Assembly (NCBI GenBank): GCA_017471765.1
Contig: JAFURT010000015.1
Coordinates: 1-64,000 of the forward strand
From: Clostridia bacterium
GTDB lineage: Bacteria; Bacillota; Clostridia; Oscillospirales; Acutalibacteraceae
DNA length: 64,000 nucleotides
Direction of reading: 5' to 3'
Shown piece after piece: positions 12,614-36,197 of the stretch (positions within the stretch are counted from its first letter, which is position 1; every line of letters begins with the position of its first letter). The notes under the pieces are model-generated. The model saw only the letters and a list, made by a program, of their open reading frames with translations, ran no database searches and was not told the DNA's origin. The translations under genes were made by a program, and so were the position numbers.

Positions 12614-12633
12614 GAAACAGGGATGTATCCTAT

Positions 12634-15659: not shown

Positions 15660-16551
15660 TCGGATTCGGACCACATTCAGCGTACAGCACTTCCGTCACA
15701 AGCTCCACGAGCTGACGATGGAAAGCGTGGTGCTTTATACCTTTACCTTTGTACTGGTGATTTTTGCCCTGCTGCCGCTGGTGTATTTAATCAACTCGGC
15801 TTTCAAGCCGCTGGACGAGATTCTGCGGTTTCCCCCTCGCTTCTTTGTGCGTAAGCCGACCATGGACAACTTTTCCAATCTGGTGGTATCTCTGAGCAGC
15901 AGCACGGTTCCCTTTTTGCGGTATGTGTTCAACAGCTTGGTCACTACCATTGCCACTGTTGCCGGCACGGTTTTGGTTTGCGTGCTGGGTGCCTATGGTC
16001 TGGTTATCCACAACCCCAAGGGCTCCGGTGTCATTATGCAGGTGGTTGTGGCGGCGCTGATGTTTTCCATATATGTCACCCAGATTCCCAACTATATGGT
16101 GGTGACCGGACTGGGGATGTACGACAGCTTTGCCGCTTTGGTGGTACCCAAAATTGCGGTGGCGTACAACTTCTTCCTGATGGAACGTTTCACCCGGGAG
16201 ATTCCCAATGCCTTGATTGAGGCGGCACGCATCGACGGTGCCGGGGAGACGCACATCTGCTTTAAGGTGGTTATGCCGTTGCTGAAGCCGGCTATCGCCA
16301 CGCTGATTGTGCTGACCTTTATCAGCTCCTGGAACGACAGCTTCTCTCCGCTGGTGTTTTTGGTCAGCCAGGAGAAAAAGACCCTCCCCGTGGCGCTGTC
16401 GACCATCGCCGGCGGTGTGGGCGTCAGCGACCTTGGACGTGTGGGCGCGACAATGGCGGCATCGCTGATTACCGCTTTACCCACCATCGTGGTGTTTACG
16501 GCTATGCAAAGCAAGGTTATGCAGACCATGGCCCACTCGGGCATAAAATGA
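15652..16551 (+). CDS. Carbohydrate ABC transporter permease (MalG-like)
   Basis: A 299-residue CUT1 inner-membrane permease of the MalG type with about six hydrophobic segments. The cytoplasmic EAA loop reads EAARIDGAGETHICFKVVMP, the docking site for the ATPase. It overlaps the fused binding protein by 8 bp, so the two are translationally coupled and probably function together. No partner MalF-type permease directly adjoins; the nearest is at 20958. No ATPase gene occurs in the array, which fits use of a shared MsmX-type ATPase. Confidence 0.9.
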   Translation: MSNRIRTTFSVQHFRHKLHELTMESVVLYTFTFVLVIFALLPLVYLINSAFKPLDEILRFPPRFFVRKPTMDNFSNLVVSLSSSTVPFLRYVFNSLVTTIATVAGTVLVCVLGAYGLVIHNPKGSGVIMQVVVAALMFSIYVTQIPNYMVVTGLGMYDSFAALVVPKIAVAYNFFLMERFTREIPNALIEAARIDGAGETHICFKVVMPLLKPAIATLIVLTFISSWNDSFSPLVFLVSQEKKTLPVALSTIAGGVGVSDLGRVGATMAASLITALPTIVVFTAMQSKVMQTMAHSGIK

Positions 16552-16580
16552 CCCTCCGGGGCATGAAAAGGACCGGTACT

Positions 16581-18011: not shown

Positions 18012-18025
18012 AGGAGGCGTGTGGC

Positions 18026-18652
18026 ATGCATCTGTTTTCATTGGCGTTTTGTATCATTCGCCACCCCTTCGATACCTTCCGGGCTTTGCAGGCGTCCCGT
18101 GACCGGTTCAGCTGGTGGCCTTCATTATTTTTACTGGGGCTTATTCTGCTGGTGCGGCTGACGTATCTGTTTTTCCTGCACTTTCCGATGGCTTCTACTG
18201 CCGCCGAGGATATTAATATCGGCATGGAAATATTCACCTTCGTGATTCCTCTGACCACATGGGCGGTGTCGATTTTCGCCATGACATCCATTATGGATGG
18301 GCAGACACGGTTCAGCGAGGCCTTTACCGCAGCCATGTACTGCATGGTCCCCTACATTCTGCTGGCCTTGCCGCTAATGGGAATTTCCCATATCATCAGC
18401 CAGAACGACTCGGCAATCTTTGATATTTTCATGGTGGCTATCGAAATCTGGGTGGTATTCTTGTTTGTAGTCAGCGTAAAGACGATGAATGAGTATTCTC
18501 TGAAAAAAACATTATTGGTTATCATTCTTGCCCTGCTGTTTATGGCACTGATTTGTGCGGTAGGTTTGTTGATTTTCTCCCTGTCCAGCCAGCTGTATCA
18601 GTTTATTGTTGGCTTGTACAAGGAGGCTCGGTACGTTCTCTTCGGCACATGA
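18026..18652 (+). CDS. YIP1-family membrane protein
   Basis: A 208-residue polytopic protein with about five hydrophobic segments. The N-terminus (IIRHPFDTFRALQ) matches the bacterial YIP1 domain start, where a conserved P-x-x-x-F-x-x-(I/L) box precedes the first helix. The function is unknown in bacteria. AAGGAGG lies 8 bp before its ATG, and it starts 14 bp after the NHL protein gene, so it belongs to the same transcript. It may help assemble or modulate the transporter; this is inference from position only. Confidence 0.8.
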   Translation: MHLFSLAFCIIRHPFDTFRALQASRDRFSWWPSLFLLGLILLVRLTYLFFLHFPMASTAAEDINIGMEIFTFVIPLTTWAVSIFAMTSIMDGQTRFSEAFTAAMYCMVPYILLALPLMGISHIISQNDSAIFDIFMVAIEIWVVFLFVVSVKTMNEYSLKKTLLVIILALLFMALICAVGLLIFSLSSQLYQFIVGLYKEARYVLFGT

Positions 18653-18689
18653 CCGGTCAGCCTATGTGCACAAGGAAAAGAGGTCAGAC

Positions 18690-20954: not shown

Positions 20955-20957
20955 CCG

Positions 20958-21860
20958 ATGAGAACCCGTGCCACAAAAACCCAGCGGCGCAAAGCGCTGG
21001 AAGGGTTTATGTTCGTTTCTCCCTTTGTGGTAGGTACGCTTGCCTTTTTCCTGTACCCGGTAATTTTTTCGCTGTATATCAGCTTTGGTGAGTATACAAT
21101 CGTTAAGGAAGCTTCCACATTTGAGTTTCTGGGTTGGGCTAATTACCTTAACGCCTTTGTAGAGGATACTACCTTTACCACCATCTTCAAGACGGTGGTT
21201 ACCGACAGTCTGATCAATACGCCTCTTATCGTGGTGTTTTCCCTGATTATTGCCATTTTCCTTAACAAAAATTTTCCCGGTCGTGGCTTCTTCCGGACGG
21301 TGTATTTTCTGCCGTTCCTGCTGGGTACCGGCTATGTTATGAGTATCCTGCTGGGCATGGACGTGGGTGAGGAGGCCATGAATATGGCCAGAGGCATCCT
21401 GTTGCCTGAAGGGGTACGGGAATATCTGGGCACCACCTTCACAGCGATGGTGGAAACCTTCCTGGGCCGTATCACCTATGTGTTCTGGCGTTCCGGTGTG
21501 CCGATTATTCTGTTCCTGTCCGGTCTACAGAACATTAACGTTTCTCTGTATGAATCGGCAAAGGTGGACGGCGCTACCGAATGGGAAATGCTGTGGAAGA
21601 TCACCTTGCCGATGGTGTCGCCGATTATGCTGTTGGTTATCGTGTACGTGGTAATCGATTCCTTCAGCGATACGGGCAATGCGATGGTGACCTATTTCTT
21701 CGAGCAGGCGTTCCGTAAGCAGGATTTTTCGTACAGTGCGGCGATCAGTTGGATTTATTTTGCATTTATCCTGTTGTTTGTGGGGCTGATTTTTGCGGTG
21801 ATGAAAGGGTTTATCCATTCCGAGCAGAGTGAGCCCCGTCGAAAGAAGGTGAGGACATGA
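20958..21860 (+). CDS. Sugar ABC transporter permease (MalF-like)
   Basis: A 300-residue CUT1 permease of the MalF type. The N-terminus (RRKALEGFMFVSPFVVGTLAF) enters the first of about six membrane helices, and the EAA loop is ESAKVDGATEWEMLWKITLP. The start codon lies 3 bp after the DUF5696 stop, with GGGAGG upstream. The gene overlaps the next permease by 4 bp (ATGA), a clear MalF-MalG pair for one transporter. No ATP-binding protein is encoded nearby. Confidence 0.92.
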   Translation: MRTRATKTQRRKALEGFMFVSPFVVGTLAFFLYPVIFSLYISFGEYTIVKEASTFEFLGWANYLNAFVEDTTFTTIFKTVVTDSLINTPLIVVFSLIIAIFLNKNFPGRGFFRTVYFLPFLLGTGYVMSILLGMDVGEEAMNMARGILLPEGVREYLGTTFTAMVETFLGRITYVFWRSGVPIILFLSGLQNINVSLYESAKVDGATEWEMLWKITLPMVSPIMLLVIVYVVIDSFSDTGNAMVTYFFEQAFRKQDFSYSAAISWIYFAFILLFVGLIFAVMKGFIHSEQSEPRRKKVRT

Positions 21861-22831
21861 AGAAGAGCGTAGCCTTGCCGGCGAGAATGGCGCAGCTGAA
21901 GGAAGGAAAGCTGTTTCAGTGGTATTCCGCCAATCTTTCCCGTGGCCAGATTTTTGTCAAGCTGTTTATCTACGTGTTCCTCAGCGTGGTGGCCTTTGTA
22001 TTTGTCTATCCATTCTTGTACATGGTCATTACATCCACTAAATCGGTCAATGATCTGTACGATTTGAGTGTCAACTGGATTCCTCGCAGTTTTCACAAAG
22101 AGAACTATACATACGCGTGGAAGATGCTGGGTTATCCGCGGCATTTCCTGATATCTGCCTTTTTGACGGGCGCCGGTGTGACGCTGAAGGTGCTGTGCTG
22201 TTCGTTCATTGGTTACGGCTTTGCCAGATATAAGTTTTTTGGAAAAAATCTGCTGTTTTTCATGGCGATTCTCAGCATTATCATGCCGGTGCAGACGATT
22301 CTGTTGCCCCAGTATCTGATTTTTGCCAATCTCCAGTGGACCGGTTCGTACCTGCCGCTGTTGGTGCCGCAGATTTTCGGTTATGGTCTTAAGGGCGGAT
22401 TGTTTATCTTCCTGTTTCGCCAGTTTTTCCTCAACCTGCCCACCTCTTTGGAGGAAGCGGCCAGAATCGACGGCTGCGGTTCGTTTAAAACCTTCTGGCG
22501 TGTGGCGCTCCCCACTGTCCGCACGTCGGTGGTGGTGACGGTGGTGCTGGCTATGGTATGGCACTGGAACGATTACTACGAGCCGTCTATCTACCTCAAC
22601 AATGCGCAAATGCTACCGCTTCCCTCTATGTTGCCGCAGGTCAAGGCGGCCTATGATTCTCTGTTTGGCGGAGCCATTGATGCTACCGCCAGCAACGCAG
22701 GGGCGCTGGTCAGCGAAGGAACGCTGATGGCGGCTATCTTCCTGGTGGTGTTGCCGGTACTGATTGTGTATGCGTTCCTGCAGAAGAAATTTATGCAAGG
22801 CATTGAGCGTAGCGGTTTGGGCGGCGACTGA
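21857..22831 (+). CDS. Carbohydrate ABC transporter permease (MalG-like)
   Basis: A 324-residue CUT1 permease of the MalG type, with about six membrane helices and the EAA loop EEAARIDGCGSFKTFWRVALP. ATGA overlap with the MalF-like gene before it indicates a heterodimer. The extra C-terminal loop (LPSMLPQVKAAYDSLFGGAI) is longer than in the permease at 15652. GGTGAGG is the ribosome site. Confidence 0.92.
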   Translation: MKKSVALPARMAQLKEGKLFQWYSANLSRGQIFVKLFIYVFLSVVAFVFVYPFLYMVITSTKSVNDLYDLSVNWIPRSFHKENYTYAWKMLGYPRHFLISAFLTGAGVTLKVLCCSFIGYGFARYKFFGKNLLFFMAILSIIMPVQTILLPQYLIFANLQWTGSYLPLLVPQIFGYGLKGGLFIFLFRQFFLNLPTSLEEAARIDGCGSFKTFWRVALPTVRTSVVVTVVLAMVWHWNDYYEPSIYLNNAQMLPLPSMLPQVKAAYDSLFGGAIDATASNAGALVSEGTLMAAIFLVVLPVLIVYAFLQKKFMQGIERSGLGGD

Positions 22832-22890
22832 TGCCGCAGATAGATTGACCGTTGCCTTTATGGCAATTCACGAAGGAATGGAAGGCAAAT

Positions 22891-23808
22891 ATGAACAAAC
22901 GTGTTGCACATTTGAATAAGAGTCCGTTACAGGAGTTTTGGCGTCAGAACGGCATCGGATATCTTTTCCTGGCCCCCTTTCTGATTTTATTCGCTGTGTT
23001 TGTGATTTTGCCGATCGTGATAGCGATTGGGCTGAGCTTCACAAACTACAATATGATCCAGGATGCTACCTGGGCGGGGCTGGCCAACTATAAAAACCTG
23101 TTCCTGAACGATAATGTATTCCTGACAGCGTTGAAGAACACCTTCGTTTTTGCGCTGTTTATCGGACCGATTGGATATCTGCTCAGCTTTTTCATGGCAT
23201 GGCTTATTAACTCCATGAAGTTCCGGCGCTTTTTGACGCTGGCATTCTATGCGCCCTCTATCTGTAGCGGTATTGCTATGGCGACGGTGTGGCTGACCCT
23301 GTTTTCTAACGACCGCACCGGTTATATCAATAATTTCCTGTTAAATCTGGGGATTATCTCCGAGCCGATTTTGTGGAACCAGAGTGCCCAGTATATCTTC
23401 CCGGCAGTTATCATTATGTCGGTGTGGATGAGTATGGGTAGTGGCTTCCTGGTGTTTCTGGCCGGTTTGCAGGGACTGCCGACAGAGGTGTTTGAGGCCG
23501 GCAAGATCGACGGTATAAAGAACCGGTGGCAGGAGCTGGCTCAGCTGGTTTTACCGCTGATGAAGCCACAGCTGCTATTTGGTGCTATCAACGCAATTGT
23601 CGGTTCTTTTTCCGTATTTGACGTCGTATACCAGTTTGCCGGTATGCCCACTCCCAACTATGCCGGCCATACCATTGTAGCGCACCTGTATGATTACGCC
23701 TTCCTACGGTTTCAGATGGGATACGCTTCGGCGGTATCGGTGGTGCTGTTCCTTATTACGTTCATTCTTGGGCGAGTGGTCATGCGTGTCCTTCGTTCGG
23801 ATGATTGA
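22891..23808 (+). CDS. Sugar ABC transporter permease (MalF-like), second copy
   Basis: A 305-residue CUT1 permease. The start at 22891 (MNKRVAHLNK) is supported by GAAGGAATGGAAGG upstream and by the usual position of the first helix (GIGYLFLAPFLILFAVFV); a longer start at 22852 has no ribosome site. The EAA loop is EAGKIDGIKNRWQELAQLVLP, with the weakly conserved first Glu/Ala kept. By type it would pair with a MalG-like subunit; the unpaired one at 15652 is the candidate, though 21857 could serve both. Confidence 0.9.
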   Translation: MNKRVAHLNKSPLQEFWRQNGIGYLFLAPFLILFAVFVILPIVIAIGLSFTNYNMIQDATWAGLANYKNLFLNDNVFLTALKNTFVFALFIGPIGYLLSFFMAWLINSMKFRRFLTLAFYAPSICSGIAMATVWLTLFSNDRTGYINNFLLNLGIISEPILWNQSAQYIFPAVIIMSVWMSMGSGFLVFLAGLQGLPTEVFEAGKIDGIKNRWQELAQLVLPLMKPQLLFGAINAIVGSFSVFDVVYQFAGMPTPNYAGHTIVAHLYDYAFLRFQMGYASAVSVVLFLITFILGRVVMRVLRSDD

Positions 23809-23834: not shown

Positions 23835-26624
23835 ATGAAGCGTTCCCGTTTAGCTCGTTTGCTTTGCCTGTTGATGGTACTTACGGTTCTCTGTACAGCT
23901 TTTGGCGCATGTAAGGCGCAAGAGGGGTGTGGCCGTGTGATGACCGAGGGAAAGATAAAAAACACCTATGCTTACCGCAAGGATGCGGCCACAGCGATTT
24001 CCCTGGAGCAGGCAGAGGACCGTGTGGGTTTGACTGCCGGCAACCATCGCGTAGAATTCGTCCGCAACAGTAAGGGCGAGTATGTGATGACCACCTACAT
24101 CAAGAAGGGTGGCGAGTGGACGCCCTTCTACAACAGCGGTGAGGCGCTGATCCAGGGCACAGCCTTCGGCGCTCATCCGACAAAGGCTGAGGTGGTGGAG
24201 GATACGGCCGCCTACAAGGCCGTGAAGCTGTCCGGCACCCATCCCAGCGCCAAGGTGAAGAATTACACCTTCGACATTTTGGTAGAGGCGTATGAGGGTA
24301 ACCCGCTGATTCACTTTGTTATCACCAACCACCTGAAGAGCAAACTGACGCTCACCACCGGTGAGCCTCGTATCATGCTGTGGCGCAACAGCGCGGCGAC
24401 GGACCTGGTGTACACCAACCAGGAGGTTCCCACCTATCAGACGGTGGATGATACTTCCCGCTGGTGCAGTGGCTTCCCGGCCAGCTATACCTATACCGAC
24501 GGCATGGCGTCCGCCTTCTATCTGGATGTGACGAACATGACCTGGTTCTCCAACAGCGGGTTGCGCCGTTTTGCGGATGCCCAGGTGCGTACCACGCAGG
24601 AGAACGGCCGTGTGGGTACCGGTATGGATCTGCGGAATGACAGCAAGGGCGACACCATTGCCGCCGGGGATATGATAGTGGAATTCTACCTGTATGGCGA
24701 AGAGGTAACCGAAACCCCCACCAAGCAGGAGGGCCTGAACACCGCCGTAGAGGTCTTTGCCAACTGCTTGTCCAGCACGGCCGTATCCCCCAAGAACTAT
24801 TTGGATTGCCAGGTCGACTACGGGTATTACATGGACAAGATCGTGGAAGGTCTGATGGCGGAGAACGTGTCCTATCAGTGGCAGGATCTGCCGGACGGTG
24901 TGTGGTCGGACGGACCGCTGTTTACCGACTATACCATCAACAAGATCGTGCAACGACAGGGGTATGTTCCCGGCAGTGATTGGCGAAAGACCAACAATGC
25001 CACCACCTTCTTCGGTGACTGGAACTGCAATAATAATACCATCCTGCCGTTGGTGTTGTACAACCGGCTCAATGAGGACGAAAAGGTAGATAGCTATCTG
25101 GATGCGGCCAAGCCCGGCCTGCTCACCTATTTTGACCGGATGGCCAGCATGTTCCGGAGCTTTACCGGTCAGAGCGGCAGTGGCTTGGAGTTCACCTTCC
25201 AGAATTACCTGATGCAGCAGGGTACCCTGTGGGCCAGCCAGTTTACGCCGGTCGAGGAATTTGACCCGGCTTACGGCGGCAAGTTCATTCAGGCGGCTTA
25301 TGGCATGCAGACGCTGGCGCAGAATGTGAACTACAAGCAACCCCAGCTGATTGATGTGGGCCGTATGGGTGCCGCCAGCAGCATTGACGAAACGCACCTG
25401 GGCGTGACCTGGGAGGTTTGGAGTGGCGGCTTCTACGCCTACAATATGATGCTGGCCTATGATGTGACCGGCAACGAAATGTATCTGAATGAGGCCAAGA
25501 AGCAGCTGGAAACGCTGTTCGGCGGTCTGGAGTATTATGCCAACTCCCTCAAGCAGAAGCTGCTGAACAACACCTATGAGTATGCTATCAACGAGGTCAG
25601 CTCTGCCCCCTGGGGTATTGCGGCCGCCCAGTGGATCTACCGCGTCACTGGCGAGGAAAAGTATCTGCAGTATTCGGAGGATATCCGCAACATCACCCTG
25701 CGCATGATGACCTGGTATGAAAGCGCTGTGGCAGATGACCCCAAAGACCAGGCGATTAAAGGCCAGTCCTTCTTCAGCGCTTTCTCCAACACCTGGACCA
25801 CCTGTCCGTGGGAGAGCATTCAGACCTATCTGCCCATGGTGATGGAGCTGAAGAATACGGATGTGCAGGCTTCGCAGGTACTGCTGAAGGCCTTCAATCT
25901 GTTCCGGATCAACTGCTTCAGCTTCTCCGGCGCTTCTTGGGATCCGTCGGTGATTGATTCGGCAGATGTGTACCAGTCCATGGTGACAGCCTATTTTATG
26001 CCGGAAGATTACTATTGCCTGGAGACCCCCACCATGCCCGGCAACAACGGTGCCAACAACTACATGACCAACACCCTGATGTATGCATGGATGATGTATG
26101 AGGCATACGCCGAGGCCGACAGCGCCGACATCATGGTCATCAACGTAGACGTCTGTGACGAAGCGTTGGAGATGGCAGAGGGCGTCAAACGGCACTTTGT
26201 GGTGTTCAACCCCCTGGCAACCACCGAGAAAACCAAGGTGCAGTTTAAGGACTTGGATAAGGATGCTAAGTACACCTTGACCATTCTGGATGAGCAGGGC
26301 AACCAGCTGTCCAAGGAGACGCTCACCGGCAAGTCGCTGATGAACGGCTACTCGGTGGAGCTGGACAGCATGACCTACGTGCACGCTGTGGTGGAGGCGG
26401 ATGAAGCCACGATGAAGACCTTCACCGCCGCCAAGGAGGCACAGCACAAGCTGATGCAGGCCTATGCCGCCCTGCAGACCGCCGGCGAGTATGCGGACGT
26501 TTCTACGCTGTCTCAGCAGAAGACCAAATTCCTGGAAGCCAAGGCGCTGTACCAGAAGGGTGACTATGCCGCTTGTATCGCGGCGGTGGATGCCTTCTAT
26601 GGTACGATTCCCACCTTTGATTAA
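23835..26624 (+). CDS. Large lipoprotein of unrecognised family, paralog A
   Basis: A 929-residue surface lipoprotein (start at 23835, MKRSRL, after AAAGGGG; lipobox FGAC). I cannot assign it to a named family. Residues about 30-330 look like a beta-sandwich (VLVEA, HFVITNHL). From about 370 it is helix-rich, with Trp/Asn/Gly-rich loops such as GDWNCNNNT, VWSGGFYAYNMMLAY, NEVSSAPWGIAAAQW and GASWDPSV, which suggests an alpha/alpha-toroid enzyme such as a polysaccharide lyase or glycosidase. A short beta domain (VVFNPL, VQFKDL) and a helical tail end it. Paralog B at 29895 shares all these motifs in order. Its setting inside a glycan array supports an enzyme or binder role. Confidence 0.7.
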   Translation: MKRSRLARLLCLLMVLTVLCTAFGACKAQEGCGRVMTEGKIKNTYAYRKDAATAISLEQAEDRVGLTAGNHRVEFVRNSKGEYVMTTYIKKGGEWTPFYNSGEALIQGTAFGAHPTKAEVVEDTAAYKAVKLSGTHPSAKVKNYTFDILVEAYEGNPLIHFVITNHLKSKLTLTTGEPRIMLWRNSAATDLVYTNQEVPTYQTVDDTSRWCSGFPASYTYTDGMASAFYLDVTNMTWFSNSGLRRFADAQVRTTQENGRVGTGMDLRNDSKGDTIAAGDMIVEFYLYGEEVTETPTKQEGLNTAVEVFANCLSSTAVSPKNYLDCQVDYGYYMDKIVEGLMAENVSYQWQDLPDGVWSDGPLFTDYTINKIVQRQGYVPGSDWRKTNNATTFFGDWNCNNNTILPLVLYNRLNEDEKVDSYLDAAKPGLLTYFDRMASMFRSFTGQSGSGLEFTFQNYLMQQGTLWASQFTPVEEFDPAYGGKFIQAAYGMQTLAQNVNYKQPQLIDVGRMGAASSIDETHLGVTWEVWSGGFYAYNMMLAYDVTGNEMYLNEAKKQLETLFGGLEYYANSLKQKLLNNTYEYAINEVSSAPWGIAAAQWIYRVTGEEKYLQYSEDIRNITLRMMTWYESAVADDPKDQAIKGQSFFSAFSNTWTTCPWESIQTYLPMVMELKNTDVQASQVLLKAFNLFRINCFSFSGASWDPSVIDSADVYQSMVTAYFMPEDYYCLETPTMPGNNGANNYMTNTLMYAWMMYEAYAEADSADIMVINVDVCDEALEMAEGVKRHFVVFNPLATTEKTKVQFKDLDKDAKYTLTILDEQGNQLSKETLTGKSLMNGYSVELDSMTYVHAVVEADEATMKTFTAAKEAQHKLMQAYAALQTAGEYADVSTLSQQKTKFLEAKALYQKGDYAACIAAVDAFYGTIPTFD

Positions 26625-26688
26625 AGGTGCCGAACATTGTCCCTAAGGGATGGTATATCCCTAAAAAATAGAGGAAAGGATGAACCCT

Positions 26689-27969
26689 ATGAAACGCGCG
26701 TTAACCCTGATTGCAGTCTTAAGCTTACTCATGTCCATGTTGCTGATTGCAGCGCCGCTGACCAGTGCGGCGGCCACCGGCGAGTGGATCGACCGGAAAG
26801 GTGCTGACCTGACCGAGCCCTATGAGGAAGCCAAGGACTCCACCTATGAGCCGATTCCCGGCTCCCTGTCCAGCTCCGGCTCTTTTGGTATCGCCGGTGC
26901 GACCTTCTCCCTGCCGATTGGTAAGGAAGCCTTCAAGGTTTCTTTTGACCTGGATTGGGTAACCCCCAGGCGCTTTGACGATTCTAACGAATCTACTGCG
27001 CAGAAGAACTTCTTCATCTGGATCAACTATGGCTATACCTCTAAGGATGAAATGGAGTCTTGGGTTGGTTTTGACGAGAGCAAGGCTCCCTGGGAGACCG
27101 CTTCCGAGGCCAACTTCACCCTGTGGAACAATAAGGTGGGCGTGGCCTATCCCGCCTACACCGACGGCCGCGAGCTGGCCTTCCCCGCCGATGCTGGCGA
27201 GAATGCGGATGAGACCGTTACCAACCTGATCTCCTTCAAGACCAAGCAGCCCATCACCGACAAGATCGAGTGGATCACCCCCGATGCCGGCATGAACATT
27301 GCCAAGGCCGGCACGGTGCATATTACGCTGGAACTGAAGAACGACGTGGTGTCTCTGAACGTCAAGAAGAAGGCGGACGGCACTGACCTGGGCACCGCCA
27401 AGGCTTATTACAAAGACGGCTACTTCAATAGCAAGACCGAGCGGTATTTCGCCATCACCCACTTCAATGGCGCTTTTGTGTGGGATATCACCAACTTCAA
27501 GATCGAGTCCAGTGATATCGCCTCCAGCGTAGGCGCTACCCCCGGTGGCCGTGAGTATGACGAGAACGGCCAGCCCATCGGCGACACGGGTGCTACCAAG
27601 CCGCCGGAGACCCCTACCAATACGACCGCTGCCGGTAGCAACGACAACAAGACCACTGGTGCTGCCGCTAATAACAACACCACTACTGCCAACACGGCTG
27701 ATGGCACGACGGCTCCGGCCGGCTCTGCTGATGCCGACACCACCACCACCGCTCCCGATGGAGAACCCGACTCCGGCAACGATGCGCCCACTGATGGCGG
27801 TGCGGACAATAACAACGACACCAGCGCACCGGTAGACGGCGATGATCCGACTGATCCCGATGGAGATTCTGCCGGGTTCCCGGTATGGGCGATTATCGTT
27901 ATCGCCGTGGTTGTGCTGGCCGGTGCCGGTGTAGCGGTATTCTTCGTGCTGAAGAAGAAAAAGGCGTAA
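26689..27969 (+). CDS. Cell-surface protein: one beta module, Thr/Asp-rich stalk, membrane anchor
   Basis: A 426-residue protein, start at 26689 (MKRALTL) with AGGAAAGG at better spacing than for the ATG 9 bp upstream. A signal peptide ends near TSAAA. One beta-rich module covers about 40-280, with the signature IGKEAFKVSFDLDW and ending FKIESSDIASSVG; the next protein carries two copies of the same module. A low-complexity stalk of about 110 residues (Thr, Asn, Asp, Ala, Pro) follows, then one membrane helix (FPVWAIIVIAVVVLAG) and KKKKA. Function unknown; the likely task is displaying a glycan-binding module away from the membrane. Confidence 0.75.
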   Translation: MKRALTLIAVLSLLMSMLLIAAPLTSAAATGEWIDRKGADLTEPYEEAKDSTYEPIPGSLSSSGSFGIAGATFSLPIGKEAFKVSFDLDWVTPRRFDDSNESTAQKNFFIWINYGYTSKDEMESWVGFDESKAPWETASEANFTLWNNKVGVAYPAYTDGRELAFPADAGENADETVTNLISFKTKQPITDKIEWITPDAGMNIAKAGTVHITLELKNDVVSLNVKKKADGTDLGTAKAYYKDGYFNSKTERYFAITHFNGAFVWDITNFKIESSDIASSVGATPGGREYDENGQPIGDTGATKPPETPTNTTAAGSNDNKTTGAAANNNTTTANTADGTTAPAGSADADTTTTAPDGEPDSGNDAPTDGGADNNNDTSAPVDGDDPTDPDGDSAGFPVWAIIVIAVVVLAGAGVAVFFVLKKKKA

Positions 27970-27998
27970 GATTTACGCAAGTCCCTGTTGTATGAGAG

Positions 27999-28015
27999 GC
28001 CGGGGCGTACCCGGC
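27999..28015 (+). promoter_or_regulatory. Small intercistronic stem-loop
   Basis: GCCGGG-GCGTA-CCCGGC between two surface-protein genes, followed by TTCACATAAAATTTTAAG. The short stem and weak T-tract suggest partial termination or message processing rather than a full stop. Confidence 0.35.
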
Positions 28016-28051
28016 TTCACATAAAATTTTAAGTGAAAAGGAGAATCCCCC

Positions 28052-29704
28052 ATGAAAAAGACCTTTAGCATTGTCTTGGCTGTCACCTTCCTGGTTCTGT
28101 CCATCGGCGCAGCCCTGTCCGTCAGCGCCGCTGACTGGACCAACCGCCCTGTGGGCGGCCCCCTGCAGGAGTATGCCGGCATCACTTCTGTCTATGACGG
28201 CGATGTGATTTCCACCTCCGGCTCTGCCGTGTACGTTAAGACCCCTGTGGGTAAGACCGATTTCAAGGTTGCCTTCAAGGTGGACTATTCCGATGCAAAC
28301 GTGATGGAGGGTGAAGACGGCTACACCAGCGATTTCCTCTCCATCTGGCTGGAGAGCAAAGAGGATATCGACAACCTGTTTGCCGGTCATATCGATATGG
28401 CGGATATGAATGACAGACGCTTCCGTGTGCTGAAGAAGCACCTGCAGGCTGTGATGGAGCCGACTGCTTTCACCAACACTCTGCGCCGCGATATTGCGGA
28501 TTTCGGCACCCAGCTGATCCCCGGCACGGAGGAACAGGAGTGGACCACCCTGGCCAACATGACTTCCACCGGCATTGTGCAGATGTTCCTGGAGGTTACC
28601 ACCGTAGATGTGGATAACTACAAGGTGATCCTGTCTGTCGTGGATGAGGCTGGCAACGAGAAGAGCAACGTATACTTCGACATCGTCGAGGATGGCTCTG
28701 TTGCGCCTTATGTGGACGGCAACGAGCTGTACCTGTGCTTCGGCTTGTATGAGGAGGCTTATTTCACTGTGTTCGACATCGAGGTCATGGAGAGTGACAT
28801 CGAGGGCGCTGTCGGTAAGAAGACCGAGTTCGTTCACAACAAGATCACCGACGAGGAGGGCACCGTGTACGCTCCTCTGCTGGAGACCACGGTTGCTTCC
28901 AGCATGAACGTTGAGGGCGCCATGGCCAGCTGGGGCACTGCGGCTACCTTCTCTCCCGTGGTGGGCAAGCAGGCGTTCTCTGTGAGCTTCGACCTGGTGT
29001 GGAAGTCCACCGCTAACGATCGTAACCAGGTTCCCAACTACAACGCTTTGGGCATCTACCTGTCCGACACCAACGAGTTCCCCTCTGATGTGGCAGAGAG
29101 CACCTGTCTGCCTCTGACCGACTGGTTTGAAATCACCGACCGTCATCTGGAGATCAAGGGCCTCACCGGTGGCAACTCCCAGACCAACGGCTTCCAGGAC
29201 TTCGGCGCAGTTGAGGGCGACGATTACGTGGTCCTGGGCGATTCCGTGGTGCACCATGTGACCATGGAGCTGAAGGATAAGGCTTTGACCCTGACGCTGG
29301 CCGGCAAGAGCTTCACGCTGAACTATGTTGATGTGGCTGACACCGATAAGTACATCGGCTTTGCTCTGCAGGGCCCCGTGGGTGTTCCCTACATGGTGAA
29401 GAACTTCGATGTGGTTGAGTCCGATCTGGCCGAGAGCATCGCTGCTGATCTGGTGGATGTGGAGTACCATGTTGCTTCCACCACTCCCGACGATGGTGAG
29501 GGTGAGACCCCCGATGCCGGTGAGAACGAGGGCGATAAGCCTGCCGACAAGCCTGCAGATAAGCCTGCCGACAAGCCTGCTGAGGACGATGCCGACAAGA
29601 ACGAGGACAAAGCTCCTGCTACCGGCGTGGCTTCTATGGCCATTCCTGCTCTGCTGACCGCTATCGGCGCTGCCGCTGTTTGTGTAAAGACGCGTAAGGA
29701 CTAA
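28052..29704 (+). CDS. Cell-surface protein with two beta modules and a sorting-signal-like end
   Basis: A 550-residue secreted protein. The signal peptide ends near LSVSAAD. Two related modules span about 30-250 and 285-475: the first has VGKTDFKVAFKVDY and ends IEVMESDIEGAVGK, the second has VGKQAFSVSFDLVW and ends VVESDLAESI. Both match the module of the preceding gene. A Pro/Asp/Lys stalk has KPAD three times plus KPA (29537-29581). The last residues read APATG, then a hydrophobic stretch and KTRKD, an anchor-like order of motif, helix and basic tail, although APATG is not a canonical LPxTG. AAAAGGAG precedes the ATG; a terminator follows. Confidence 0.75.
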   Translation: MKKTFSIVLAVTFLVLSIGAALSVSAADWTNRPVGGPLQEYAGITSVYDGDVISTSGSAVYVKTPVGKTDFKVAFKVDYSDANVMEGEDGYTSDFLSIWLESKEDIDNLFAGHIDMADMNDRRFRVLKKHLQAVMEPTAFTNTLRRDIADFGTQLIPGTEEQEWTTLANMTSTGIVQMFLEVTTVDVDNYKVILSVVDEAGNEKSNVYFDIVEDGSVAPYVDGNELYLCFGLYEEAYFTVFDIEVMESDIEGAVGKKTEFVHNKITDEEGTVYAPLLETTVASSMNVEGAMASWGTAATFSPVVGKQAFSVSFDLVWKSTANDRNQVPNYNALGIYLSDTNEFPSDVAESTCLPLTDWFEITDRHLEIKGLTGGNSQTNGFQDFGAVEGDDYVVLGDSVVHHVTMELKDKALTLTLAGKSFTLNYVDVADTDKYIGFALQGPVGVPYMVKNFDVVESDLAESIAADLVDVEYHVASTTPDDGEGETPDAGENEGDKPADKPADKPADKPAEDDADKNEDKAPATGVASMAIPALLTAIGAAAVCVKTRKD

Positions 29705-29748
29705 TTCAGCGTATACCCATATAAGGACGTATAAAACCTAGGCTTCAC

Positions 29749-29790
29749 GATGGGGTGCCGTCTTTCGGCGGCACCCCATCCTCTTAATTA
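29749..29790 (+). terminator. Terminator after the module-repeat surface gene
   Basis: GATGGGGTGCCG (29749-29760) pairs with CGGCACCCCATC (29769-29780), loop TCTTTCGG, followed by CTCTTAATTATG. The T-tract is weak, so some read-through is possible. It splits the array into two transcripts or an attenuated one. Confidence 0.65.
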
Positions 29791-29820
29791 TGTATTTTCC
29801 CTTCATAACTTAGAAAATAA

Positions 29821-29836
29821 CAGGGAACATTCCCTG
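29821..29836 (+). promoter_or_regulatory. Short palindrome before paralog B
   Basis: CAGGGA-ACAT-TCCCTG is a perfect 16-bp hairpin or operator-like element about 60 bp before the start of the 29895 gene. No convincing -35/-10 pair stands out around it. Confidence 0.3.
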
Positions 29837-29894
29837 ATAACATATGCTAGTACATCTTAAATATATAAACAATCCGAAAAAGGAGGAACATACA

Positions 29895-32855
29895 ATGGCG
29901 AAAACATGGATCCGACTATTTGCATGCTTGTTGAGCGTGGTTCTGCTCTTTACTGTGGCCTGCGGCTGTCGTTCCGGCGAGGAGAACAGTGCGGGGGACA
30001 ATAGCAGTGATGTGACTGACAGCACCGGTGAGCCGGATGGCCCCAACAATTCCGGTGACAGTGCAACTACCGACACCACGGGAGAGAACACTACCATCGG
30101 CGGCACCGTCGGTACCGAGGCTACCAAGCCCAGTGGAGGCGGTAGTGTAGGGACAACCAAGCCTTCCACCGGTTCTGGTATTGCCGACCTGGTGAGCAAC
30201 GGCTCCAAGGATATTCCCTCCCAGACCTATGCCTATGTGAAGAACCCCGGTGTGGGTATTGCTATGGAGAAAAAGGCGGATAGCATCACCCTGCGTGCCG
30301 GCGGCCAGAAGGTGACCTTTGCCAAAAACGGCAAGGGGGAGTATATCCTCACCACCTATGTCGTCAAGGGCGGCAAATGGGTGGCCTTCTTTGACGGCGC
30401 CGAGGCGCTCATTCAGGGCGATAAGTTTGACGGCCATCCCACCGGCTATACGGTGGTGGCGGACACCGCCAACTATAAGGCGGTGAAGCTCACCGGCAAG
30501 CAGAGCGGCGTGGGCTGTGATTTTGACATTCTGGTGGAGGTATTTGACGGCAACCCCCTGGTGCATTTCACCGTCACCAACCACCTGACCAATACTATAA
30601 CTTTGGCGGAGGACGAGCCGCGCTTTATGCTGTGGCGTAAGGGCGTGGACAATAACCGGGTGAGCATCAATCAGGAGACCCCCACCTATCAGGATGCCTC
30701 CGCCTCCGGCTGGAGTGCCTTCCCGGCCAGCTATCTGTACACCGATGGGATGGCCTCTGCGCTGTATTTTGATATGGCGCCCATGACCTGGTATTCCGAC
30801 AACGGCATCCGGCGCTTCCGGGACAGTAAGGTGCGTACGGTGGCCGAAAACGGCAAGACCGGCGTGGGTCTGGACATCATCGGCTCGTCCCAGGGCAAGC
30901 GGATTGCCAAAGGAGATATGGTAATCTCCTTCTACCTGTACGGGGAGGGAGACGTGGCCAAGCCCACTAAACTGCAGGCACTGGATGCCGAGGTAGAGGC
31001 CTTTGCCTATTGCCTGGATAACGACACCAACAAGCACACCAACTATCTGGATGGCACGCTGAGCTATGAATTCTATGCCAAGAAGATCATCGAAGGCATG
31101 ATGGCAGAGAATGTGTCCTTTAAATGGGAGAATAAGAGCTGGAACGGCGGCAAACTGTTCCCGGAACTGAGCGTCAAGCGCATTGTGCAGCGTTCCGGCT
31201 ATGTGAAGAATACCAACATGCACGGCAACAACGCCGGCGATTTGTCTGGTGACTGGAACTGCAACAACAATACGTTAGTACCCTGGACGCTGATTGAGCG
31301 GTTACATCCCAATGCCAAGCAGAATGCGATGATTAAAGAGCAAGCCACCGGTCTGCTGGCGTATTTCGATGATATCGCCTGCCTGTACCGGAGCTTCCCC
31401 GGTGCCTATTTCGGGCAGGGTAAGGAGTTTACCTTCCAGAACTATTTTATGAATCAGGGTCCCCTGTGGGTCAGCGATTTCCTGCCGGCAGACAGCTTCA
31501 ATCCTGCCTTGGGCGGCAAGTTCCTGCAGGCGGCGGACACCATGATTCAGCTGGCTCATAATGTGGGATATGTGATGCCCCAGCTTATTGATGTAGCCCG
31601 TCTGGGCGTGGCCGAAAGTATTGATGAGCCTCATTTGGGCGGTACCCGTGAGGTGTGGAGTGGCGGCTTCTATGCCTACAACATGATGCTGGCCTACCGT
31701 GTCAGCGGCGAGCAGAAGTACCTCAATGAGGCCAAAACGATGCTCACCAAGCTGTTCGACGGTAAGTTGAGCTTTTATGTCAATTCCAAGAAAGAGAAGC
31801 TGTACACCGATCCCTATGAGTTCCCGGTCAACGAGGTCAGCTCTGCTCCGTGGGGCATTGCTGCCGCCCAGTGGATCTATCGTATTACCGGTGACAAGAC
31901 CTATCTGACCTATTCCGATAACCTGCGTAATCTCACCCTGCGGATGATGAAGTGGTATGAGAGTAATCTGAGCAGTGTCCCCATGGACCAGAGCTTGGGC
32001 GGCATCTCCTTCTTTGCCGCATTCCCCACCACCGATACCACCTGCCCCTGGGAGACGATTCAGAGCTATCTGCCCATGCTGATGGAGCTGAAGAATACCG
32101 ATGTAGCCCCCTCGCAGGTGATGCTGAAGGCGTTCAACCTGTTCCGCATCAACAGTTTTGGCTTCTCCGGTGCTTCCTGGGATCCCAGCGTTATCACCAG
32201 TGCCAAGCATTATCAAAGCAGTGTAACGGCGTATTATATGCCGGAGGATTATTATTCCTTTGAGGTGCAGACCAAGCCCGGCCAGAACGGCGCCAACAAC
32301 TATATGTCCAATGCGCTGATGTATGCCTATCTGATGTACGATGCCTATGCTGCCTCCAGCAACGAGGATATGATGGTGGTCAACACCGACATCTGCGACG
32401 ACGGCATGGAGATGGCCGACGGTGTTTGCCGGAATTTCACGGTGTTTAACCCCACCTATAAGTCTGCCACTTTCAAGATTCAGTTTAAGGATCTGAAAAG
32501 CGGCTCGAACTACACCCTGACAGTACAGGAAGCCAACGGCAAGAAAACCACCAAGACGCTGACCGGCAAAGCCTTGATGGCCGGCTATTCTGTCACGCTG
32601 GGGGCGATGGACTATCTGCAGCTGAAGGTGGAGCTGGCAGACAAGGCAGCCGTGACCAACTTCGAGAACGCCAAGGCGGCCCGGTACGACCTGATGCAGG
32701 CCTATGCCAAACTGCAGAATTCCTATTTCGATGCCGGTAGCGTTACCAGTGCTCTGCAGGCGAAAAAGGATATCTATTCGGCAGCGCTGAAGCTGTTTAA
32801 CGAGGGCAAGTACACCGATTGCAGCAAGAAGCTGGCGGACGCCGGCCTGTGCTAA
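29895..32855 (+). CDS. Large lipoprotein of unrecognised family, paralog B
   Basis: A 986-residue lipoprotein; start at 29895 (MAKTWIR) after AGGAGGA; the signal ends VACGC, so the acylated Cys is in TVAC or ACGC. A Gly/Ser/Thr/Asp-rich linker covers about 25-100, absent from paralog A. The rest aligns with paralog A along its whole length, with shared motifs GDWNCNNNT, VWSGGFYAYNMMLAY, NEVSSAPWGIAAAQWIYR, LPM(L/V)MELKNTDV, GASWDPSVI and NGANNYM. I do not recognise the family. The conserved Trp, Asp, Glu and Asn in loops suggest sugar binding or catalysis. It is followed 21 bp later by a GH29-like enzyme. Confidence 0.7.
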   Translation: MAKTWIRLFACLLSVVLLFTVACGCRSGEENSAGDNSSDVTDSTGEPDGPNNSGDSATTDTTGENTTIGGTVGTEATKPSGGGSVGTTKPSTGSGIADLVSNGSKDIPSQTYAYVKNPGVGIAMEKKADSITLRAGGQKVTFAKNGKGEYILTTYVVKGGKWVAFFDGAEALIQGDKFDGHPTGYTVVADTANYKAVKLTGKQSGVGCDFDILVEVFDGNPLVHFTVTNHLTNTITLAEDEPRFMLWRKGVDNNRVSINQETPTYQDASASGWSAFPASYLYTDGMASALYFDMAPMTWYSDNGIRRFRDSKVRTVAENGKTGVGLDIIGSSQGKRIAKGDMVISFYLYGEGDVAKPTKLQALDAEVEAFAYCLDNDTNKHTNYLDGTLSYEFYAKKIIEGMMAENVSFKWENKSWNGGKLFPELSVKRIVQRSGYVKNTNMHGNNAGDLSGDWNCNNNTLVPWTLIERLHPNAKQNAMIKEQATGLLAYFDDIACLYRSFPGAYFGQGKEFTFQNYFMNQGPLWVSDFLPADSFNPALGGKFLQAADTMIQLAHNVGYVMPQLIDVARLGVAESIDEPHLGGTREVWSGGFYAYNMMLAYRVSGEQKYLNEAKTMLTKLFDGKLSFYVNSKKEKLYTDPYEFPVNEVSSAPWGIAAAQWIYRITGDKTYLTYSDNLRNLTLRMMKWYESNLSSVPMDQSLGGISFFAAFPTTDTTCPWETIQSYLPMLMELKNTDVAPSQVMLKAFNLFRINSFGFSGASWDPSVITSAKHYQSSVTAYYMPEDYYSFEVQTKPGQNGANNYMSNALMYAYLMYDAYAASSNEDMMVVNTDICDDGMEMADGVCRNFTVFNPTYKSATFKIQFKDLKSGSNYTLTVQEANGKKTTKTLTGKALMAGYSVTLGAMDYLQLKVELADKAAVTNFENAKAARYDLMQAYAKLQNSYFDAGSVTSALQAKKDIYSAALKLFNEGKYTDCSKKLADAGLC

Positions 32856-32876
32856 GAGTAAAAAGGAGTGAATAGT

Positions 32877-34559
32877 ATGGATTTTTTCCAAACTTCAAAA
32901 CTGGCCCTGTACGTGACCTATGCCTTTGAGGCAGGCGGCCCTTGCGGTTGCTATCCCGACGGCAGCCTTCCCGGAAGCTTTAAGGAGATCGTGGACGGCT
33001 TCAATGCGGAATCCTTTGCAGAGGACTGTGCCGAAATCGGGGTGGATTATGTCAATTTCACCGCCTATCACGCCAATATGTATGTGCTGTATCCCAGCGC
33101 TTATCTGGACGAAAACCTGCCGGGGCATTCGGCCTATCGGGATGTCATCCGGGATCTGATCGATGCTCTGCATAAGCGGAATATCAAGCTTCAGCTGTAC
33201 ATTCATGCCACCATCGGCGACACGATGAAGGAGGAAGACCGTACCCGGCTGGGGTATCACGATTCCACCGGTGGATACAAGCGCTGGAATGATTTTGTCA
33301 ACGGCTTTTTCACTGAGCTGGTACAGCGGTATGGCACGGATATTGATTCCTACTATTTCGATATGATTTTTGACAAGCCCTTCCTCACCATGATTGATTT
33401 CAAGCGGCTGTATAACACCGTGAAGTCGGTCAATCCGGACGTGGTCGTGGTGGGCAACGGCGAGGCCAACGATGCGGTGGATTACGGCTCCCGTGAGGAC
33501 GGCCTGGCCGATTTCACCGACGCCGATAAGTGGGCGGTGTATCCCACGCAGACGGTGGTGCGCCTGTCTGATTGGTGGTGGTCCACCCGCCCCAACACGG
33601 TGGAGGATGCGACTAAGTGCTCGGCAGACCACCTGTTCCGGCTGCTGGTGTTGACCTGCGGTGCCAATACCGAGGGCGGCGGTCTGGCGTTGGGAGCTTC
33701 TCCCTATGCAGGCGGCGGCTTTGAACCCAGGGTAAAGGAGACCATGCTGGAGCTGGCGGAGATGATTCGCCCCATTGAGGAATCTATCAAAAACACCTTG
33801 CCCAGCAAGAGTTATATCACGCCCTCCGGTATTAAAATTCCGGAATTGCCCCAGGGCATTACGGCGACCACCTCGGTGGATAGAACGAAGGAATATATCC
33901 ACGTACTGTGTCCGCCGGCCGATAACCGGCTGGATTTGCCGTTGCCGCTGGATGGAAAGACCTTCCTGTCTGCCACCATGTTGCGTACCGGTCAGCCGGC
34001 AGAGTTGACGGTGGATGCCGAAGGCGTGCACATTGTTGTGCCGGCCGGGTGGGATGCCTATGACACGGTGATTAAGCTGGATTGTATCCCTGCCGCCCCG
34101 GCGGAGATTGACTATGTGGCGTTGCCGCAGACCAGTCTGCAGGTGGCCTCTTCGTCGCCGACAGTGGCCGGCTGTGGCCCGGAGAAGGCGATTGACGGCA
34201 ACCCCAACAGCATCTGGTGGACCTCCGGCGATGTGATGGGACAGATCACCTTGGAACTGGATGACGTGTACGATGTGTGCCGTGTCCGGGTGCTTCCCCG
34301 GCAGGATGGGGAGGGTGTCAAACTGTGCACCCATATTTCTCTGTATGCCATTTATGTCAGCGAGGACGGTGAGCACTTCACCCCGGTGGCTTCCGGCGAA
34401 TGGAAGCGGTCGCTGACCGAAAAGCAGGCGGTATTCCCGCCGGTAAAGGCCAAGTATGTCCGTATCACCTCCGGCCCCAACTGGTTGCCTGCCGATTGGC
34501 GGATCTTCCCGGTGTCCTCCTCCTCTGCGGCCGGCATCTTTGTGGATGTGAAGAAATAA
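32877..34559 (+). CDS. GH29-like glycosidase with C-terminal F5/8C-type domain, cytoplasmic
   Basis: A 560-residue protein, start ATG at 32877 (MDFFQTSK) after AAGGAG. The N-terminal 310 residues form a barrel like alpha-L-fucosidases (GH29): EIGVDYVNFTAYHANMYVLY, RDVIRDLIDALHKRNIKLQL, and YYFDMIFDKP, in which D162 is the candidate nucleophile. A beta domain follows, then a discoidin/F5-8C-like domain from about 420 (SSPTVAGCGPEKAIDGNPNS and YVRITSGPNW). The general acid cannot be named. There is no signal peptide, unlike its neighbours, so it would act on imported sugars. Fucosidase is the best guess; another GH29-related specificity is possible. Confidence 0.65.
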   Translation: MDFFQTSKLALYVTYAFEAGGPCGCYPDGSLPGSFKEIVDGFNAESFAEDCAEIGVDYVNFTAYHANMYVLYPSAYLDENLPGHSAYRDVIRDLIDALHKRNIKLQLYIHATIGDTMKEEDRTRLGYHDSTGGYKRWNDFVNGFFTELVQRYGTDIDSYYFDMIFDKPFLTMIDFKRLYNTVKSVNPDVVVVGNGEANDAVDYGSREDGLADFTDADKWAVYPTQTVVRLSDWWWSTRPNTVEDATKCSADHLFRLLVLTCGANTEGGGLALGASPYAGGGFEPRVKETMLELAEMIRPIEESIKNTLPSKSYITPSGIKIPELPQGITATTSVDRTKEYIHVLCPPADNRLDLPLPLDGKTFLSATMLRTGQPAELTVDAEGVHIVVPAGWDAYDTVIKLDCIPAAPAEIDYVALPQTSLQVASSSPTVAGCGPEKAIDGNPNSIWWTSGDVMGQITLELDDVYDVCRVRVLPRQDGEGVKLCTHISLYAIYVSEDGEHFTPVASGEWKRSLTEKQAVFPPVKAKYVRITSGPNWLPADWRIFPVSSSSAAGIFVDVKK

Positions 34560-34604
34560 TCTGCATGCCGGATGAATTGTTTTCATGAAAGGGGCAGAAA
34601 AAGT

Positions 34605-36122
34605 GTGGCAAAAAGCGTTTGGCATCGTTTGGTGGCACTGGGTACGGCGGCGGTCATGTTACTGACAGTATGCGCCGGCTGTACCGGTGAGGATAAGCCT
34701 GATTCTGATGTCGAAAGCACCGACAATCGGACAGATTACAGTAAGTATATCGAGGTTTCTGTGGAACAGTTCAGTAAAAATCGGGGGGAATGGGACGTGG
34801 ACAGTATTTTGTTATCCAATATATTTACCGACGGCGTGGTGCTACAGCGTGAGCAGGGCATCCGTGTGTTCGGCGAGGCGCCCAACGGCCAGCCGGTGAC
34901 GGTGGCGCTGGGTGAGGATACGGTTACCGTTACCGCTGATGCGGAGAACGGTGGCTTTATCGCCACCCTGCCGCCTCGCAAGGCGGCGACCGGTCTGACA
35001 CTGACCGTCACCAGCGGTGAGGAAACGGTCACGGTGAAGGATGTATGCGTTGGGGATGTGTTCCTGTGCGGTGGCCAGTCCAATATGCAGCTGACCATGG
35101 ACGATACCGAGTGGTATGGGGATTTTTACCTTTCCCAGTTTAAGGATTATCAGGATGACCCTCTGCTTCGTCAGTATCTGGTGGAGTTTGGGGCCAGTAC
35201 CACGCCGCAGTTGGACAGCATCTCCGTCGGTTGGGTGGAAGCCAAAGCCGAAACCTTCAAAAAATTTGCTCCGCTGGCCTATCTGTTTGCCTGCCAGCTG
35301 CGGCAGCGCGAGGGGGATATCCCGGTGGGTCTGGTTATGTGCTCTGCCGGCGGCTCCGCCATTCAGTTATGGATGCCGGAAGCAGATCAGGTGTCTGACG
35401 GTGACAGCGACAGCCAGTTCTACAGCCAGAGAGCGCAGTTGTATAACAACATGGTCGCTCCTCTTATGCCGTATACCGTGTCTGCCGTCCTGTGGTATCA
35501 GGGTTGCGCTAACGCTACCTATGACAAAGAAGGGGTATACGAGCTGTTACTGGAACGCCTGATTAGCAGTTGGCGGCGAGAGCTGTACAGCGATACAGTG
35601 CCCTTCTATGTTATCGAGCTGGCCGGCTGGAATGACCGGCGTTTTGTCACTCTGCGGCAGAATCAGCGGACGGTGAGCGATAAGCTGGACAATGTGTTCC
35701 TGATTGCCAACTACGACCTGGGCCACCCCAGCAATATCCACCCCACCACCAAGGATGTGTTAGCGGTGCGTTTGGCAAACGCCTACCGGGCTACACGCTG
35801 GTATGAGGCGTGCGAATGGCAGGCGCCTCGGTTGGATACAGTGGCAGTGGCTGACGGCAAGGCAACCGTGACCTTTACCTATGTCTACGACGGGCTGAAG
35901 GAGGAGCAGGCGCTTAATGGCTTTGCGGTGTGTGATGAAAACGGTGCGTGGTACGACGCTCAGGCTACGGTTTCCGGCAAAGATACGGTGACGGTGTGGT
36001 GTGATGAGGTGGCTACCCCCACCGGTGTAAAATATGCACAGCTGGGCTATTTGGCTGATGTAAACGCTTACAATAGCGCAGATTTACCTGTTCTGCCCTT
36101 TATTTGGCAGGAAGAAAAGTAA
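34605..36122 (+). CDS. Sialate O-acetylesterase-like SGNH lipoprotein
   Basis: A 505-residue surface lipoprotein. A GTG start at 34605 is chosen because AAAGGGG lies 10 bp upstream and it leads straight into the signal VALGTAAVMLLTVCAGC; the in-frame ATG at 34572 has no ribosome site. The mature protein has a beta domain (LPPRKAATGLTLTV) and then the SGNH hydrolase: GGQSNMQ with the nucleophile Ser, CSAGGSAIQLW, WYQGCANA and, in the last block, SNIHPTTKDV with the catalytic His. Family members I recall have NDIHP there, so the Asp position reads Asn. The enzyme would remove O-acetyl groups from sialic acid or other sugars. A terminator follows. Confidence 0.8.
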   Translation: MAKSVWHRLVALGTAAVMLLTVCAGCTGEDKPDSDVESTDNRTDYSKYIEVSVEQFSKNRGEWDVDSILLSNIFTDGVVLQREQGIRVFGEAPNGQPVTVALGEDTVTVTADAENGGFIATLPPRKAATGLTLTVTSGEETVTVKDVCVGDVFLCGGQSNMQLTMDDTEWYGDFYLSQFKDYQDDPLLRQYLVEFGASTTPQLDSISVGWVEAKAETFKKFAPLAYLFACQLRQREGDIPVGLVMCSAGGSAIQLWMPEADQVSDGDSDSQFYSQRAQLYNNMVAPLMPYTVSAVLWYQGCANATYDKEGVYELLLERLISSWRRELYSDTVPFYVIELAGWNDRRFVTLRQNQRTVSDKLDNVFLIANYDLGHPSNIHPTTKDVLAVRLANAYRATRWYEACEWQAPRLDTVAVADGKATVTFTYVYDGLKEEQALNGFAVCDENGAWYDAQATVSGKDTVTVWCDEVATPTGVKYAQLGYLADVNAYNSADLPVLPFIWQEEK

Positions 36123-36150
36123 TGGCGTTTCGGGTTTTCCCCTTTTCTAT

Positions 36151-36197
36151 GCAGGCGGTTGGTACCAGCAGGTATCAGCCGCCTGCAATTTTTATTT
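36151..36197 (+). terminator. Terminator ending the glycan array
   Basis: A 16-bp imperfect stem (36151-36166 with 36171-36186, core GCAGGCGG/CCGCCTGC, loop AGCA) is followed by AATTTTTATTTTTC. Confidence 0.85.

Follow-up and report, generated by a model that had tools for sequence, protein, structure and literature searches.

The described enzymes closest to the proteins studied here belong to the families GH76 (alpha-1,6-mannanases), GH88/GH105 (unsaturated uronyl hydrolases), GH127 (beta-L-arabinofuranosidases, DUF1680), and GH36. Members of GH76 use a conserved adjacent pair of catalytic Asp residues, and the catalytic domain of GH36 is a TIM barrel. Many lyases possess a conserved Tyr/His/Arg set. 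The active residues given for UGL, a GH88/GH105-type enzyme, in PMC4528949 are Asp149, His193, and Asp88, with His193 thought to be active.

The two genes compared with these enzymes, A and B, are located in a window of 64,000 nucleotides (the whole stretch of DNA that was analysed). The original prediction described their products as an unrecognised family, which agrees with the results of our searches. Namely, the profile search against Pfam suggested with that prediction returned nothing above the cut-off for A or B (best E 0.019), no match near the cut-off was obtained with NCBIfam, and PHROGs yielded no match. A sequence search of the PDB with A alone gave one chance-level match (E 0.64), and the PDB search with the profile of the four-member lipoprotein branch described below gave none. 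A literature search, which covered few subscription journals, revealed no paper that could be tied to this family.

Genes A and B and their surroundings

The two genes are as follows.

23835-26624 (+): gene A, 929-aa predicted lipoprotein; ATG start preceded by AAAGGGG
29895-32855 (+): gene B, paralogue of A (986 aa), in which the signal peptide is followed by a longer linker rich in Ser/Thr/Gly; ATG start preceded by AAGGAGG

Both were found at the positions originally predicted. Alternative starts are present further upstream (TTG 23805 for A; ATG 29844 for B); the sequences preceding ATG 23835 and ATG 29895 support the predicted starts and, hence, the lengths given above. Residues 54-924 of A align with residues 128-993 of B, with 478 of the 878 aligned positions (54%) identical and 19 gaps. 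The two genes are therefore paralogues, as had been claimed, but the N-terminal ends and the linkers are dissimilar, so that the earlier description of an alignment along the whole length was slightly too strong. No further match is present in the genome assembly to which A and B belong (1.92 Mb; completeness, 79%). Each protein begins with a signal-peptide-like stretch followed by a Cys usable as a lipoprotein site, which points to a probable location at the cell surface. Judged by eye, the lipoboxes of A and B fit imperfectly, and that of one relative, L012, is canonical (LSAC).

The other features of the locus are listed below.

7690-10782 (+): GH2 protein, counterpart of the GH2 protein in the L012 locus (42% identity over 1013 alignment columns)
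10835-23808 (+): transport stretch upstream of A, recognised by Pfam and by eye
10835 (+): putative solute-binding protein, by eye, no Pfam match
12705-15659 (+): 984-aa protein with a solute-binding domain only at residues 589-873
15652, 20958, 21857, and 22852 (+): four ABC permease subunits
16548 (+): NHL/TPR protein
18026 (+): Yip1-domain protein
18606-20954 (+): DUF5696 protein inside the transport array (E 6e-152)
26680-27969 (+): between A and B; protein that by eye looks secreted and anchored through a transmembrane segment at the C-terminus; no Pfam match above the cut-off
28052-29704 (+): secreted protein between A and B; C-terminus (PATG, hydrophobic stretch, KTRKD) presumably of the sortase type; no Pfam match
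29749-29780 (+): terminator-like hairpin of 14 pairs just before B (pattern match)
32868-34559 (+): GH29-like protein with an F5/8C domain, directly after B (PF01120, 8e-19; PF00754, 3.2e-16)
34572-36122 (+): SASA-type carbohydrate acetylesterase (PF03629, 9.5e-26)
36150-36187 (+): terminator-like hairpin of 17 pairs with a T-rich tail, after the SASA gene (pattern match)

Thus, A and B do flank two surface proteins in a glycan array, the secretion and anchor signals being recognised by eye and the sugar locus by Pfam. The hairpin between A and B suggests that the two genes may be located on separate transcripts; 23 terminator-like hairpins were counted in the scanned stretch versus 10.5 in shuffled sequences. 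The GH2 and GH29-like proteins have no signal peptide by eye, which makes the lipoprotein the natural outside actor.

Several further features of the window were recorded. The first ~580 residues of the protein encoded at 12705-15659 could not be assigned clearly to any family, which is an unusual layout for a binding protein. No paper naming DUF5696 was found in the literature search. A choloylglycine (bile salt) hydrolase family protein (43306-44472, +; PF02275, E 5e-94) is encoded beside a GH78-type six-hairpin protein (41325-43463; PF17389, 1.2e-14). A right-handed beta-helix protein (4591-6936, -) matches GH141_M weakly (E 0.0023), and its gene adjoins that for an RpiR-type regulator (3688-4569). 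An open frame of 2548 aa (56344-63990, -) has other long frames opposite.

Members and distribution of the family

The family alignment includes 12 members of 693-986 aa (ATG starts), which form three branches sharing 15-25% identity with one another. Branch 1 is composed of lipoproteins from gut Clostridia. These are A, B, and two relatives found by scanning contigs with A and B: L011 from a buffalo-rumen Clostridia MAG (50% identity to A) and L012 from a sheep-rectum Clostridia MAG (45%). Branch 2 comprises proteins from five genomes of one other Bacillota genus; four of the five copies, which start without a signal peptide by eye, were aligned, and that of G635, cut by a contig end, was left out of profiles A3 and A5. 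Branch 3, reached through a plasmid search, includes proteins without a signal peptide (by eye) from two Asticcacaulis, one Novosphingobium, and one Spirosoma. Comparison of the profile of branches 1 and 2 (A3) with that of branch 3 (A4) gave Prob 98 and E 1.2e-14 over 311 columns. These statistics come from small alignments, with 12 members in total and branch 2 drawn from a single genus. Function may differ between the branches, since only branch 1 looks secreted.

The four-member profile of branch 1 matched 9 of 398 genomes of the phylum: the own genome, five of the branch 2 genus, and three with weak N-terminal matches. Each of the branch 2 genomes showed two matching stretches (best E 1e-14 to 1e-21). 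The branch 2 gene is present in 5 of the 17 genomes of its class, that is, in five of the six genomes of its genus. A reverse search with P0007 matched six of the 398 phylum genomes, all of which carry family members, A and B included. No full-length copy was detected with P0001 in the other 149 of 150 genomes of the same family or in the other 290 of 291 genomes of the class, and profile A5 likewise revealed none in 320 further genomes of the class, out of a set of 321 that overlaps with those searched with P0001. Hence, the gene occurs only sporadically in this lineage. Viral contigs (searched with A3) and phages (with P0009 as the sole query) contained no family match.

Weak matches were set aside and never entered the family alignment: one from the search of same-family genomes and six places from that of the class (both with P0001), three from the phylum search with the four-member profile, five from another search, and 29 from the class search with A5. 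Those in the toroid region correspond to 36 distinct places; ten were scanned, and all ten match GH88, GH127, or C5-epimerase-type models. Two proteins of the comparison sets A6 and A7, L064 and L073, were placed by eye. The N-terminal weak matches (L004, L019-L021) probably reflect signal-peptide resemblance.

A sugar-gene setting recurs around the distant relatives, and sugar genes also accompany the near ones. The partners common to the window and the L012 locus are GH2 and GH29-like proteins (42% and 44% identical, respectively); the latter locus also contains a rhamnulokinase-like gene, scoring under its cut-off. A GH2 gene is present in the L011 locus too, where the contig ends; the solute-binding-like protein encoded there has no Pfam match and displays no similarity to the window's 10835 protein in BLASTP. 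In branch 2, the context was checked with Pfam in one locus, L029, where a LacI regulator, the family gene, a solute-binding protein, and a permease were identified, together with a protein resembling a cellulase/GH2 barrel (under the cut-off) and another open frame to which Pfam gave no match. The other three branch 2 loci have similar gene starts according to the list of open reading frames only. All four branch 3 loci contain a GH130-type gene (by Pfam in three; annotated as 'glycosidase' in A. excentricus) and an SDR gene (by Pfam in two, by annotation in two) close by. The SDR gene of Spirosoma is two genes away on the opposite strand. Genes annotated as GH92, GH125, GH3, and GH2 are also near the family gene in Asticcacaulis DW145.

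The family, SDR, and GH130-type genes of branch 3 (L046-L049) form a recurring combination, carried by large replicons in Spirosoma, Novosphingobium, and Asticcacaulis. Genes annotated as Ku and Hsp20 (Novosphingobium) and as ferritin-like (Asticcacaulis) are located near these cassettes.

Fold and conserved residues

The 12-member profile matched 23 PDB chains at E up to 10. Eighteen of these had E < 0.2 and included 11 GH76, three beta-L-arabinofuranosidase (GH127), one LanC-like, and three AprG chains; the remaining five (E 0.84 to 3.8) were three LanC-like chains and two with unrelated names. The GH76, GH127, and LanC-like chains are all toroids. The best chain, GH76 4v1r, has a whole-chain E of 6e-7, which is summed from two stretches, the better of these alone giving E 0.0017. 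The next six GH76 chains have E between 7e-5 and 7e-4, with 8e-4 for the best stretch taken singly; per single stretch, the best PDB matches range from about 8e-4 to 2e-3. Run separately, profiles A3 and A4 matched GH76 chains only (best E 0.011 and 0.0018, respectively). Scanned against Pfam with a limit of E 10, the 12 members yielded 10 families, of which those matched by more than one member were GH36C (3), GH88 (3), and GH127 (2), all weakly. Since the PDB matches span 70-80 profile positions with no known catalytic residue inside, they support the fold type and not the chemistry. The helix-rich centre previously described as toroid-like is thereby borne out through a profile match to solved toroid enzymes, GH76 being the best, and this match supports the assignment of A and B to the six-hairpin (alpha/alpha toroid) glycosidase superfamily.

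The estimated domains of A and its conserved features are given below; residue numbers of A are those of P0001, counted from TTG 23805.

Residues ~54-300: N-terminal region, strand-rich according to a crude propensity script
Residues ~330-780: toroid
Residues ~790-860: C-terminal region, followed by a helical tail
25005-26144 (+): segment of highest conservation in A's toroid core (residues 401-780), defined by invariance in the four lipoproteins; PDB profile matches fall inside
25353-25355 (+): D517 of A (B: D583, 31590-31592); acid in 12/12 rows (MAFFT), same pairing of branches 1 and 2 with branch 3 by hhalign
26004-26006 (+): E734 of A (B: E801, 32244-32246); acid in 12/12 rows (MAFFT), same pairing by hhalign
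25812-25814 (+): E670 of A (B: E737, 32052-32054), a possible acid/base; Glu in 12/12 rows (MAFFT)

Among the four lipoproteins, 45-46% of positions are invariant in residues 401-780 of A, versus 26% in 50-300, 22% in 301-400 (the end of which is counted as toroid), 23% in 781-860, and 14% in 861-939. Six motifs recognised by eye in A, GDWNCNNN (404), EFTFQN (462), WSGGFYAY (539), NEVSSAPWG (596), CPWES (667), and NNGANNYM (747), recur every 57-80 residues, and inner helices could start there. Twelve helices are not established by the propensity script on its own, so the ring of six hairpins is putative.

The four motifs quoted in the original prediction are present in both A and B. They are largely kept across the four lipoproteins, with variation at some positions in L011 and L012, but few of their residues survive in all three branches: G542, Y544, and A545 of VWSGGFYAY; G604 and A607 of NEVSSAPWGIAAA; and P714 of GASWDPSV. 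No residue of GDWNCNNNT survives across all branches. The quoted motifs are thus largely a feature of the lipoproteins, and the weak conservation in a wider family that was named as speaking against the original prediction is partly observed. Two alignment methods agree on D517 and E734 as acids present in all three branches, and both are located outside these motifs. Pairs obtained by hhalign between branches 1 and 2 and branch 3 were D517, Y544, P714, E734, G749, and Y753. In the same alignment, E670 faces a branch 3 Ser that is closely preceded by two Glu; it was therefore rejected as a family-wide acid, and that claim rests on D517 and E734. In the MAFFT alignment, D444 and E563 are nearly invariant. 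Position E597 is Glu in 8 of the 12 members and Gln in the four members of branch 3.

Proposed function and comparison with known toroid families

A glycoside hydrolase is the simplest reading of A and B. We consider that they are probably surface enzymes of an unclassified six-hairpin family, which feed an ABC importer and the cytoplasmic GH2 and GH29-like enzymes. As cell-surface lipoproteins, they would carry a catalytic (alpha/alpha) toroid between N-terminal beta-rich and C-terminal domains and would make the first cuts of a glycan outside the cell. The products would enter through the ABC importer encoded just upstream of A, the GH2 and GH29-like enzymes would complete their breakdown in the cytoplasm, and the SASA esterase would remove acetyl groups. 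The active site is expected at the mouth of the toroid, with its carboxylates among D517, E734, and perhaps E670.

It is unlikely that A and B are instead polysaccharide lyases or unsaturated-uronyl hydrolases (GH88/GH105-like), in which the toroid would attack uronic-acid glycans through elimination or through hydration of the product. The comparison with a GH88-type set (A6) gave Prob 96 and E 3.5e-9 over 111 columns, but it is biased, because this set was drawn from the weak matches of the family searches themselves. The GH88 model (PF07470) was matched weakly by 3 of the 12 members (best E 0.0024, 11.5 bits for P0008), which is under the 26.6-bit cut-off as inferred from E. In a low-confidence local realignment, E597 is paired with Asp112 of the GH88-type protein L005 and E670 with Asp173, which is invariant in the GH88-type set, whereas global realignment pairs neither residue with these Asp. 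No conserved Tyr/His/Arg set is present in the A/B family. No His column within residues 330-780 is kept in all 12 rows; accordingly, His193 of UGL, thought to be active (PMC4528949), has no conserved toroid counterpart in the 12 members.

That the proteins are non-catalytic and capture oligosaccharides at the surface for the importer appears quite improbable. Their lipoprotein form and the position of two paralogues beside two other surface proteins would suit such a role, but the distant members, without a signal peptide by eye, are also encoded beside sugar genes, and D517 and E734 persist between branches that share 15-25% identity. It is very improbable that the toroid is the scaffold of a sugar epimerase or isomerase of the AGE or C5-epimerase type: some weak toroid neighbours from the family searches also match C5-epim_C, and branch 3 adjoins SDR and GH130-type genes, but the C5-epimerase and GlcNAc-2-epimerase models listed none of the 12 members with an E of 10 or less (HMMER filters drop most matches above about 0.1).

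For the glycoside hydrolase that we favour, a deoxyhexose-containing, O-acetylated heteroglycan as the substrate is only a guess from context. A mannoside, prompted by the GH130 neighbours of branch 3, was not adopted because the own assembly (79% complete) contains no GH130 match. Rhamnogalacturonan or fucose was set aside too, the context being suggestive only (GH29-like, L012 rhamnulokinase-like, GH141_M, and GH78-type proteins).

More tentatively, the family could be a new GH family extending across Bacillota, Alphaproteobacteria, and Bacteroidota, with its own set of toroid carboxylates. The secreted branch of gut Clostridia would start the breakdown of a deoxysugar-rich glycan, and the cytoplasmic branch of Asticcacaulis, Novosphingobium, and Spirosoma would form, with the SDR oxidoreductase and the GH130-type phosphorylase, a redox-assisted oligosaccharide pathway; we regard this wider scheme as possible, yet rather doubtful. 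If the proposed activity is true, a function could be given to a family without above-cut-off matches in the copies of Pfam and NCBIfam searched. The GH2 and GH29-like partners shared in gut Clostridia would then point to a glycan whose breakdown is traceable, and the SDR and GH130 cassette of branch 3 would represent a second, separately testable pathway.

Among the known toroid families, it is GH76 whose solved structures the family profile matches best, the match being located in a toroid hairpin. In contrast to GH76, A and B possess large extra N- and C-terminal regions, and the family has no Asp-Asp pair conserved in the toroid: DD occurs at two toroid positions (444 and 639) in some rows and at neither in all 12. 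The Pfam model of GH76 listed none of the members with an E of 10 or less, within the same HMMER filters. GH76 was rejected as the family home, with the Asp pair missing and the match short (70-80 positions). Members of GH88/GH105 are toroids as well, but the GH88-type proteins compared comprise 349-397 aa versus 693-986 aa in the A/B family. GH88 was also rejected as the family home in view of the missing His counterpart, the weak Pfam score, and the biased comparison set. GH127 shares the toroid (PDB E 0.13), but the profile-profile Prob against three GH127-type proteins is only 24; its Pfam model (PF07944) matched 2 of the 12 members weakly (best E 0.0014), under the cut-off by inference from E. 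The resemblance to GH36 is one of domain only: its catalytic domain is unmatched in the A/B family, whereas its C-terminal domain matches 3 of the 12 members weakly (best E 0.0023), in A at residues 805-847.
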